Source of the DNA: a virus
Reading direction: 5' to 3' (one strand)
IMG/VR virus record: IMGVR_UViG_3300034062_000104
Span: 1-22,697 of that record
Length of the DNA stretch: 22,697 nucleotides
In this document: piece by piece, positions 3 to 1,635 of the stretch
Numbering within the stretch: the stretch's first letter is position 1
How the letters are laid out: each line of letters opens with the position of its first letter
The notes under the pieces: model-generated
What the model was told of the DNA's origin: nothing
The model's database searches: none
The model's input: only the letters and a program-made list of their open reading frames with translations
Program-made: the position numbers and the translations under genes

Positions 3-191
3 TATGAAGTTTATAGACTAGGACAAGAAATAGAAAAGAGTGGTCAACCATACCATTGGGATGTTTATGTCTCACCCTCACAGCGCAATCAGGTGCTTGA
101 GGAAGTGGCAAAAGAGATTCAGAAGATGACCGCCTTTGGTCAAGACACTTTAGACAGTTTTAGCGTTTACATAAGGAGCATGAAATCATGA
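3..191 (+). CDS. C-terminal fragment of an unrecognised phage early protein
   Basis: An open frame enters from the left edge and ends at TGA 189-191, leaving 62 residues of a longer protein. The visible part is polar and probably helical (for example EVAKEIQKM) with no motif I recognise. The stop codon overlaps the next ATG (ATGA, 188-191), so it is very likely co-translated with the YqaJ-type nuclease downstream. In phage recombination operons this position is often held by another recombination or replication protein, such as an annealing protein, but nothing in these residues shows that. The other two plus-strand frames have stops within the first 21 bases. Confidence 0.6.
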   Translation, partial: YEVYRLGQEIEKSGQPYHWDVYVSPSQRNQVLEEVAKEIQKMTAFGQDTLDSFSVYIRSMKS

Positions 192-814
192 TTGAAATGA
201 TGGATCAGGGTTCGGAATCTTGGTTTCAAGTCCGAATTGGCAAAGTCACCGCATCTCGTGTAGCTGACGTTCTCGCCAAGACAAAGACGGGCTATTCAGC
301 AACTCGTGATAACTACATGGCTCAGTTGGTGTGTGAACGCCTAACGGGTCAAAAGGGTGAGAGTTTTACGAACGCTGCCATGCAACATGGCACAGACACA
401 GAACCCCTTGCCAGAGCCGCTTATGAGGCTTTACAGGATGTTTTGGTTGATGAAGTGGGGTTTGTACCCCATCCCTCAATAATCATGGCTGGCGCTTCTC
501 CTGATGGCTTGGTTGGTGAGGATGGCCTCTTAGAGATCAAATGCCCCAACACAGCCACGCACATTGAGACTTTGCTTAGTCAATCAGTGCCAGGCAAGTA
601 CAACACCCAGATGCAGTTTCAGATGGCTTGCACAGGGCGACAGTGGTGTGACTTTGTGTCTTTTGACAATCGTCTGCCAGAGGAACTTCAATTGTTTGTT
701 AAACGTGTCCCAAGGGACAATATGTATATCAGACTAATGGAAGAAGAAATTGTCAAATTCTTGAATGAACTTGACATCAAAATTGCTCAACTTATGGAAA
801 TAAAAAATGTCTAA
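188..814 (+). CDS. YqaJ-family viral recombinase / alkaline exonuclease
   Basis: This 208-residue protein is a good match to the YqaJ/lambda-exonuclease family, which are PD-(D/E)XK nucleases that degrade one strand of double-stranded DNA ends to allow single-strand annealing recombination. Family features seen: the N-terminal QGSESWFQVRIGKVTASR segment (residues 7-24), a conserved acidic TEPLAR (71-76), the catalytic core SPDG with Asp106, EIK with Glu116 and Lys118, and a following QMQFQM helix (141-146). The length is normal for the family. The ATG overlaps the upstream stop (ATGA), and the stop overlaps the next start by eight bases, so it belongs to a coupled recombination operon. The family call is confident; the exact role (recombination, DNA maturation or host DNA degradation) is inferred. 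Confidence 0.93.
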   Translation: MIEMMDQGSESWFQVRIGKVTASRVADVLAKTKTGYSATRDNYMAQLVCERLTGQKGESFTNAAMQHGTDTEPLARAAYEALQDVLVDEVGFVPHPSIIMAGASPDGLVGEDGLLEIKCPNTATHIETLLSQSVPGKYNTQMQFQMACTGRQWCDFVSFDNRLPEELQLFVKRVPRDNMYIRLMEEEIVKFLNELDIKIAQLMEIKNV

Positions 815-1043
815 ACTTTACGAAATTACCATTGTTTCAGGTAAATACAAAAACAAAGATGGTGTGGAGAAATCCCGCTATCAAAACATCGGCTCGGTCA
901 TTGAGACCAAGAACGGCCCGATGCTCAAACTTGACATGATTCCGCTTATCGATGGTGGATGGAATGGTTGGGCATACATGAATGAACCAAAGCCTAAAGA
1001 TGATTACAAAGGCTTGCCAAAGGATGATGACATCGATTTTTAA
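807..1043 (+). CDS. Small protein with SSB-like acidic C-terminal tip; candidate ssDNA-binding protein
   Basis: This 78-residue protein begins with a probable beta-strand segment (LYEITIVSGKYKNKDG), followed by strands around RYQNIGSVIE and MLKLDMIPL, then an acidic tail ending KDDDIDF. That tail resembles the DDDIPF tip by which bacterial SSB proteins recruit partner proteins. The body could form a compact OB-type barrel, and small phage proteins with a similar arrangement are often annotated as single-strand DNA-binding. The start lies inside the end of the exonuclease gene, so the two are coupled; pairing of exonuclease and ssDNA-binding protein is common in phage recombination modules. 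The role is inferred from the tail and the neighbour. The tip has Asp where E. coli SSB has Pro. Confidence 0.75.
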   Translation: MSKLYEITIVSGKYKNKDGVEKSRYQNIGSVIETKNGPMLKLDMIPLIDGGWNGWAYMNEPKPKDDYKGLPKDDDIDF

Positions 1044-1048
1044 TTAAC

Positions 1049-1129
1049 GGGGGAAAGCGGATGCCGAATGCGCTTGTTGGTAATGACCGAAGAGAAATCG
1101 TTCGGGGCTAAGGAAGCAGCGAGTACCCC
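1049..1129 (+). ncRNA. Possible structured RNA element in an early-operon gap
   Basis: The 104 bases between two plus-strand genes (1044-1147) are unusually long for this compact genome and rich in potential stems. AAGCG 1055-1059 pairs with CGCTT 1071-1075 (11-base loop). CCGAA 1087-1091 pairs with TTCGG 1101-1105 (9-base loop). GGGG 1050-1053 could close the whole element by pairing with CCCC 1126-1129; alternatively that CCCC pairs with GGGG 1104-1107. The only reading frame is 16 codons (1061-1111) with a poor ribosome site. It could be a leader element controlling the winged-helix gene, a processing site or a small RNA. I do not match it to a known RNA family. Confidence 0.3.
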
Positions 1130-1147
1130 ACCTATTTAGGAAATATC

Positions 1148-1474
1148 ATGGACTATAAAGACGCATTTAAGAAAATTTTTGCCATGCCCGAATTCCCAAG
1201 AGTCAGGGCAAATGATCCCCTAACATCGTTTCAGGCGGCAGATTCCATCAAGGAAGCCGCCACCCAACACCATCAGACAATCTTAGAGTGTCTCCAAACA
1301 CACGGGCCACTAGGCAAGGATGGCATCTCAGCTTGTACCAATCTGGACAGCAATCAAGTTGCTAGGCGGCTCAACGAAATGAAAATAATGGGCTTGATTG
1401 AATTGACAGGCAACACAGTCAAATCCAACTCAGGCAGAAGTGAAAGAGAGTGGCAATGTACCCAATCGAATTAG
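1148..1474 (+). CDS. Winged-helix DNA-binding protein
   Basis: This 108-residue protein has a probable winged-helix fold. A helix around HHQTILECLQTHG (41-53) is followed by a GKDGISACTNL turn-helix. A recognition-like helix NQVARRLNEMKIMGLIE comes next, then a beta wing ending GRSEREWQ. The arrangement of alternating helix, VARRL, GLIE and a terminal strand is typical of small phage regulators and replication-initiation accessory proteins. AGGAAAT lies eight bases or so before the ATG, and the start follows the structured gap. Its end overlaps the next gene. The target is unknown: it may regulate the early genes or act in replication. The fold is inferred from pattern only. Confidence 0.75.
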   Translation: MDYKDAFKKIFAMPEFPRVRANDPLTSFQAADSIKEAATQHHQTILECLQTHGPLGKDGISACTNLDSNQVARRLNEMKIMGLIELTGNTVKSNSGRSEREWQCTQSN

Positions 1475-1635
1475 GCGGAAATCAGCCTGTTCATAGATTA
1501 CGAACTTGTAATAAATGTGATGAGACAAAGCCGCCAGAGGGAGGGGTTGATATGGGGCATAAGTGGATTTGCCAAACTTGTTGGATCATGCGTTTGACAG
1601 GCAAACATTTGCGACAGAACTCAACTGAAAAATAA
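1456..1635 (+). CDS. Small zinc-ribbon-like protein with two CxxC pairs
   Basis: This small protein has two cysteine pairs, CNKC and CQTC, about 18 residues apart, the spacing of a zinc ribbon or treble-clef finger. The segment between them ends in MGHKWIC, and the protein finishes with a basic tail. I chose ATG 1456 because AGAGAG precedes it at a suitable distance; an in-frame GTG at 1450 would add two residues. It overlaps the winged-helix gene by 19 bases in a different frame. Its last 15 bases also overlap, in antisense, the end of the lysozyme gene on the other strand. Function is unknown; DNA or RNA binding is plausible. Confidence 0.7.
   Translation: MYPIELGGNQPVHRLRTCNKCDETKPPEGGVDMGHKWICQTCWIMRLTGKHLRQNSTEK

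Follow-up and report, generated by a model that had tools for sequence, protein, structure and literature searches.

By comparison with its relatives, the 104-base gap between an SSB-like gene and a winged-helix-like gene in the early gene block of a phage holds a real, conserved RNA element. The conserved frame consists of an outer stem (P1), a sarcin-ricin internal loop (GAAA/NAGUA), an inner stem (P2), and an apex that is freely exchanged. It is a new candidate RNA motif, previously unlisted, with strong comparative support, and we regard it as a variant of the intercistronic stem-loop with a putative function.

The gap lies in a 22.7-kb IMG/VR phage record, here called the window (the whole stretch of 22,697 nucleotides that was analyzed). 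The minus strand of the window carries portal, scaffold, and major head genes, and the plus strand carries the end of the early block, in which an exonuclease gene and the SSB-like gene precede the gap and the winged-helix-like gene follows it (Table 1). The genes on either side overlap (188-814 with 807-1043; 1148-1474 with 1450-1635), and after the gap there are only two small genes before convergent genes begin. The first-pass annotation had described the gap as a gene-free stretch amid overlapping genes, and this description held. The only open reading frame (ORF) within it has 16 codons (1061-1111); we rejected a coding reading because this ORF is not conserved among the relatives, and it cannot be, since the inner part of the gap changes completely in length and sequence between them. 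Among annotated relatives of the 78-amino-acid protein encoded upstream, the nearest is a phage protein labeled "single-stranded DNA-binding protein," with which it shares 45% identity across query residues 1-61; together with the acidic tip, this points to a putative SSB. The protein fell into no Pfam family and had no significant PDB match in a structure search, and because neither search proves its identity, we call it SSB-like. The downstream winged-helix-like protein had a weak match to Pfam HVO_A0114, below the cut-off.

Table 1. Features of the early block and of the RNA element in the window
Feature	Positions	Strand	Basis or remark
YqaJ-type exonuclease	188-814	+	Early block
78-aa SSB-like protein, acidic tip DDDIDF	807-1043	+	ORF; upstream gene
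Gap, 104 bases	1044-1147	+	Between stop of 78-aa gene and start of winged-helix gene
Structured RNA element, P1 to P1'	1049-1129	+	Conserved frame in relatives; covariation
P1 5' arm GGGG, pairs with 1126-1129	1049-1052	+	Pair probability 0.76; compensatory variants in relatives
Sarcin-ricin (bulged-G) motif, GAAA strand	1053-1056	+	Conserved in relatives; G2/A12 form (PMC8450098)
P2 5' arm GC, pairs with 1119-1120	1057-1058	+	Pair probability 0.46; P2 covariation in relatives
GGA bulge of B subtype (GCGGAUGC...GCAGC)	1059-1061	+	44 B-subtype inner domains collected
Hypervariable inner domain	1062-1118	+	Minimum free energy (MFE) fold; local helix 1064-1070/1099-1105 and a hairpin inside; wholly different in relatives with flanking genes 95-97% identical
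P2 3' arm GC	1119-1120	+	MFE fold, pair probabilities
Sarcin-ricin (bulged-G) motif, GAGUA strand	1121-1125	+	AGUA conserved in collected frames
P1 3' arm CCCC	1126-1129	+	MFE fold, pair probabilities
Shine-Dalgarno-like AGGA of winged-helix-like gene	1138-1141	+	Sequence
108-aa winged-helix-like protein	1148-1474	+	ORF; PHROG 1123; downstream gene

From the window sequence alone, a claim of structured RNA would not stand, because the single-sequence fold is not significant: the gap had an MFE of -26.9 against -24.6 +/- 3.2 for its shuffles (z = -0.72), 44 of 200 shuffles folded at least as well, and the reverse strand gave a z of +0.55. Energy z-scores across all post-ssb gaps were likewise uninformative; the probable reasons are that shuffled G/C tracts can pair anew and that the sarcin-ricin loop is absent from the energy model. 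The stems proposed from the sequence in the first-pass annotation fared differently in the light of the conserved fold. The suggestion that GGGG/CCCC pairing encloses the whole element was right and corresponds to P1, which is conserved in relatives. Pairing of CCGAA with TTCGG is plausible, lying in the local helix of the inner domain (CCGAAUG/CGUUCGG; probability, 0.62), but it is local to this phage and belongs to the hypervariable apex. The AAGCG/CGCTT stem (1055-1059/1071-1075) is complementary and has a probability of about 0.3, but it conflicts with the conserved fold and was rejected because it would use bases 1055-1058, which are part of the conserved GAAA strand and of P2.

We fetched loci via the three neighboring proteins, 80 for each, and found that both ends of the homologous gaps are conserved (TTAACGGGGGAAAGCGGATGC and GCAGCGAGTACCCCACC...) and that the middle differs in sequence and length. 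Gene-blind pattern scans of viral contigs yielded at least 120 stretches, some of them from contigs collected before, and a GGGU/GCCC stem pattern yielded 19 further stretches from viral contigs. When the element was defined by a P1 of at least four pairs, with four G-C, and a P2 of at least two pairs, there were 167 distinct elements, one of which was a bridging artifact. A descriptor scan gave 121 matches in 1.16 Mb of loci versus 5 in dinucleotide shuffles, which measures the specificity of the descriptor and not the frequency of the element, as most of these loci had been fetched with element patterns. Three matches were found in 257 Gb of prokaryote genomes with a pattern stricter than the viral one, such that the counts are not like for like. 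Cultured or named phages gave no blastn match to the element, and it was absent from fourteen annotated phage records that we chose because their upstream genes are related. Exactly one copy was present in the window and in each of seven whole contigs, apart from one spurious match; a few loci had tandem pairs.

In an alignment of 54 distinct frames, 90.7% of the cells were paired, versus 75.5% in shuffles, and the covariation score was 0.437 versus 0.153, a value reached by none of 500 shuffles. Sliding the partner by one to three columns lowered the score to 0.03 to 0.09 (0.03 to 0.05 for a single column). Because these 54 frames had been collected with a pairing filter, we repeated the covariation test without it. 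The third P2 pair was then formed in 61 of the 69 sequences of the pattern-scan set, as UA, GC, AU, CG, or UG, against 25.5 expected and a maximum of 35 in 2,000 shuffles, and in stretches anchored on ssb rather than on the element, the first P1 pair was present in 45 of 48 sequences, where 27.4 would be expected (maximum, 37). P1, mostly of 4 to 6 pairs, occurs in variants such as GGGU/GCCC, GGGGCC/GGCCCC, GGGCC/GGCCC, GGGCU/AGCCC, and GAGGC/GCCUC; its 5' side is nevertheless mostly G, with GGGG in most copies. The first P2 pair was G.U in 55 of the 69 sequences, and U.G is used in P1. This preference for G.U, together with the non-Watson-Crick covariation described below, fixes the strand as RNA. 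An alignment of the homologous gaps had been proposed as the check on the idea of a functional RNA; in the relatives collected here, the pairs covary, what is conserved is not a coding frame, and the idea survives. A functional structured RNA is strongly supported by the covariation of P1 and P2, the covarying loop pair, the G.U pairs, and the sense orientation.

The internal loop, whose strands N-A-G-U-A and G-A-A-N lie between the two stems, is by its sequence form a sarcin-ricin (bulged-G) motif. Both GAGUA/GAAA and UAGUA/GAAC are known sequence forms of this motif, which is a three-dimensional building block and not a family; its prototype is U2-C12, the G2-A12 form is nearly as stable, and G2-C12 is destabilizing and has never been seen in sarcin-ricin structures (PMC8450098). 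The substitutions that we observed obey the rule for this lower tSH pair. Where position 12 was A, the partner in the collected elements was G in 104, U in 34, A in 14, and C in 2 cases, and where position 12 was C (loop GAAC), the partner before AGUA was U in every one of the 12 true cases (P = 6e-7, uncorrected for shared ancestry; the C-U cases span several different groups of loci). The thirteenth C12 case, with G, was a false frame that bridges a tandem pair of elements in L243. The loop thus contains a non-Watson-Crick pair that covaries by the isostericity rule (G-A, U-C, U-A, A-A, and so on, never G2-C12), as judged from these sequences. The GAAA strand stands 5' of the apex and the AGUA strand 3' of it, which we take to be the reverse of the order in the rRNA sarcin-ricin hairpin, and we rejected mimicry of that hairpin on account of the reversed order.

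Above the loop, the element comes in several forms. The A subtype has a five-pair P2, a P3, and RGACGA as its 3' bulge; in 28 sequences of this subtype, 93.8% of the cells were paired. The B subtype has the form GC-GGA-UGC ... GCA-GC, with either U or AC as a bulge, and its inner helix varies by compensation across 44 inner domains. The window element belongs to the B subtype, and its 3' bulge is longer. No core is common to the inner domains, which shrink to a tetraloop in the smallest versions, of which GGG-GAAA-GC-GUAA-GU-GAGUA-CCC is the minimal one. These keep the sarcin-ricin loop even though they are weak hairpins by standard energies (median z for that set, +0.21). One subclade has the AGUA strand changed to GCGAU (GCGAUCCCCCC). 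In relatives whose flanking genes are 90 to 97% identical to those of the window, the apex may differ altogether, or a simple hairpin may stand in place of the element. A close relative (L104, 3244 onwards) appears to have lost the whole inner domain (GGGUGAAAGCGAGUAGCCC), leaving a bare P1 loop as a natural minimal version. At another locus (L213, 4896-4967), a tRNA-like sequence forms the inner domain; it scored 33.4 bits against the Rfam tRNA model (cut-off, 29) and was not called by ARAGORN. The same locus (1457-1530, minus strand; 28.5 bits) and L214 (1692-1768, minus strand; 28.7 bits) also had int-alpA RNA matches below the cut-off of 35.8.

The constant neighbor of the element is the gene in front. 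In 51 of 108 ssb-anchored frames, P1 started 5 nucleotides behind the stop codon, and this distance hardly ever exceeded 12 nucleotides; the distance from P1 to the next start was 17 to 18 nucleotides in 36 of 81 measured cases. Among 99 distinct gene-blind elements, 77 had a same-strand gene ending at most 15 nucleotides before P1, and 6 fell inside a long ORF frame. An acidic C-terminal tip was present in 46 of 75 distinct upstream proteins, compared with 136 of the 995 remaining ORFs at these loci (P = 2e-19). The upstream genes included members of the SSB PHROG families 18154/7364, 112 (Gp2.5-like), and 6015, which cannot be aligned with each other, and of PHROG 27714, a large family of unknown function; also among them were an exonuclease group and one major head protein, and in L303, an HNH-like gene, not ssb, directly precedes the element. 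Downstream genes differed even behind one and the same upstream family and in some copies lay far away. Since the upstream class is constant and the downstream genes vary, the element goes with the class of the upstream gene. When three ssb-type families were anchored without reference to the element, the frame followed in 57 of 106, 19 of 57, and 32 of 73 distinct cases, rates that are not a census of phage ssb genes because two of the families had been chosen for having been seen before elements. In each family, 13 to 18 distinct sequences had no gap at all behind ssb, which indicates that the element is dispensable.

Members of the phrog_27714 family (for example, L269, 1131-2111, minus strand) have invariant cysteines and an acidic tip and often precede the element. 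The predicted structure of one such protein had a pLDDT of 63, and several of its top PDB matches bind single-stranded DNA (PrgE, WHY2, RPA), with E values above 0.4; the family may be a putative unrecognized SSB. The same sarcin-ricin frame also occurs behind an exonuclease-like gene at nine loci (L244, L250, L261, L273, L295, L301, L339, L350, and L355). There, the gene ends in QIKN(N/G)(L/I) wherever the sequence covers it, the downstream gene is far away, and conservation extends beyond the frame into the flanks UUCACGGGAACG and GCUUCACAUA; pairing of UUCAC with the GUGAG in the frame would give a possible alternative fold.

The slot behind ssb has other occupants. A plain hairpin, AGGGGCAUUGCCCCU, fills it between flanking genes 90 to 97% identical to those of the window, the phrog_27714 family often has GGGGGCUUCGGCCCCC there, and the phrog_27714 homologue of Pseudomonas phage Rollin is followed by GGGGGCUGCAAAGCCCCC. 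In Burkholderia phage Bm1 (L569), a tRNA-Met (1900-1972) starts 6 nucleotides behind the ssb stop, and in some phages the slot is empty. This exchange of occupants argues for a simple shared task at the hairpin base. Three more motifs were seen in similar positions. A second conserved structured motif, AGCCCAGCCGGAGGUGGCGCUAAUAACACCGGCAGCGGGGGCU...AGUGACCCCGCA, lies directly behind ssb-type genes (L245, L455-L457, L474, L476, and L490-L494); 7 of its 19 predicted pairs showed changes on both sides, and five of its loci gave no Rfam match at an E value of 1 or below. A third motif behind ssb (L510, L512, L515, L517, L528, L548, and L552) has an invariant CAUCUUGUAUAUGUG, a GGGG/CCCC enclosure, and possibly a pseudoknot, and gave no Rfam match in the loci searched. 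A fourth, GUAGCAGGAGCGGUCG..UGCGUGUG..., follows phrog_27714-type genes (L431, L446, L462, and L469).

Rfam 15 had no match in the window and none of relevance at an E value of 10 or below, and in the relatives, nothing matched over the element except the tRNA inside L213. We found no earlier description of the element among the open-access papers searched. To that extent, the suggestion of a new RNA class, made when only the sequence had been read, gains support. An intrinsic terminator is ruled out because no U-tract follows the hairpin: no terminator-like site was found on the plus strand between 700 and 1700, and most relatives lack a U-rich stretch in the 3' flank (CCCCACC). No promoter was found at the element. 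A self-cleaving ribozyme was rejected, as there was no Rfam ribozyme match and the inner domain lacks a common core. The spacing would fit a stimulator of frameshifting or readthrough, but many upstream genes lack a slippery site (for example, GAC GAC GAG TAA) and the reading frame that follows is not preserved. The A and B subtypes carry a GGA, but we rejected binding of CsrA to it because GGA is absent from many elements and from the simple hairpins.

Among known systems, the element most resembles the protective stem-loops of the malE-malF and puf type, which lie between cistrons directly behind the favored gene and have no terminator tail (PMC5927463). It, too, is a hairpin between two cistrons on the sense strand and is not a terminator, but unlike them, it is virus specific and linked to SSB-type genes, its sarcin-ricin loop is conserved, its basal G/C stem is mostly fixed, and its protective role is a prediction. 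By association, the nearest known RNA is the STAXI motif (RF01728), also a candidate structured RNA near genes for single-stranded-DNA-binding proteins; STAXI is a tandem pseudoknot of Enterobacteriales (PMC2864571), whereas the element has, as a rule, one nested hairpin frame per genome. By location, the nearest is the L17 downstream element (RF01708), which lies behind a stop codon, is proposed to act on that gene, and has its strand indicated by G.U pairs and GNRA loops (PMC2864571); the gene, hosts, and fold of our element are different. Neither RNA family matched it in Rfam.

Our preferred reading, which we hold tentatively, is that the element is a structured RNA that acts in cis within the polycistronic early (replication/recombination) message, where it forms the 3' boundary of the ssb cistron. 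Two phage systems provide a background for control of this kind. The lambda sib retroregulator is a phage RNA structure, a long RNase III hairpin, that acts on the upstream gene, and T4 gene 32 is an SSB gene controlled through RNA, with the site at the 5' end. Once the downstream portion of the early message is cut, 3'-to-5' exonucleases would stall at the rigid base of the hairpin, and with decay stalled, the ssb part would live longer and give more protein than the less-needed downstream genes; alternatively, the hairpin may mark the processed end of the ssb cistron. A plain GC hairpin or a tRNA in the slot could do the same job, and the malE-malF type offers a precedent for a protective stem-loop (PMC5927463). 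Several observations sit poorly with a boundary of this kind. A plain nuclease block would not need a P1 that is mostly GGGG; the element is dispensable and absent from the cultured phages checked; and one copy (L303) follows an HNH-like gene, with the window gene and phrog_27714 themselves only putative SSBs. The weak point of the boundary reading is the loop, since retention of the sarcin-ricin motif in very small, weak hairpins suggests recognition by a factor and not only a block.

That last point leads to the main rival, which we consider doubtful rather than remote: the element would be bound specifically, whether by the phage SSB, by a different phage protein, or by a factor of the host, and would serve feedback on the ssb cistron or its neighbor, with the loop and the GGGG/CCCC stem as the recognition surface. 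The loop is kept from the largest to the smallest versions, the sequence of P1 is mostly conserved and not merely its pairing, the tie to SSB-type genes is strong, and the L17 downstream element offers a precedent, being a structured RNA located behind a gene for which feedback has been proposed (PMC2864571). A specific binding site is harder to reconcile with upstream SSB families that cannot be aligned, with plain hairpins and a tRNA replacing the element, and with the subclade that changes its AGUA strand (GCGAUCCCCCC). In a broader version, the sarcin-ricin hairpin behind ssb would define a phage-specific class of regulatory RNA that the SSB, or else an RNA-binding or ribosomal factor of the host, recognizes; feedback would set the dosage of SSB, and the various unrelated folds that compete for the slot would have converged on this task. 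This version seems to us unlikely, if a little less so than what follows. The tight spacing on both sides would suit an insulator or coupler of translation that tunes termination, ribosome recycling, and reinitiation at the start 17 to 18 nucleotides on. We think this rather improbable, as the spacing comes largely from one family and may reflect shared ancestry or compactness, the Shine-Dalgarno sequence lies outside P1, and it is the downstream genes, some of them distant, that vary and the upstream class that is constant.

Close in content to the preferred 3'-boundary reading is a processing site at which an endonuclease such as RNase E or P separates ssb from the downstream message, the hairpin serving as recognition site or guide. 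The tRNA-Met behind the Bm1 ssb stop and the tRNA-like insert in L213 suggest that cutting here is probably tolerated, but these are single cases and no common cleavage motif was seen; the stems of the element, which we presume to be too short for RNase III, also count against this reading, and we give it little credence. Control of transcription by an attenuator, a put-type antiterminator, or a leader of the downstream gene appears very unlikely. A stable RNA hairpin in an operon, in single copy per genome, would be compatible with it, but there is no U-tract terminator. Both a leader control element and an antitermination site had been suggested at the outset; the former is poorly supported because the constant neighbor is the upstream SSB-type gene while the downstream genes vary, and the latter because, in the window, just two small genes lie between the gap and the convergent genes and the element is single copy where checked. 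Least probable is an element acting as DNA, such as an origin or a recombination or packaging hairpin. Its place in a replication/recombination gene block and its frequently exchanged apex would fit, but G.T is a mismatch in DNA, and yet G.U is the usual first P2 pair and U.G occurs in P1; moreover, the loop obeys an RNA three-dimensional rule, and the element is mostly in sense with the gene in front.

The element would be a widespread and easily recognized RNA of aquatic phages that is absent from Rfam. It offers annotators a way to SSB-type genes of unknown families, for which phrog_27714 is one prediction, and near-identical phage pairs with the sarcin-ricin element, a plain hairpin, or nothing in the slot are natural experiments in which simple reporters could test its function. 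Its placement suggests that phages may set the dosage of SSB at the 3' side of the gene.
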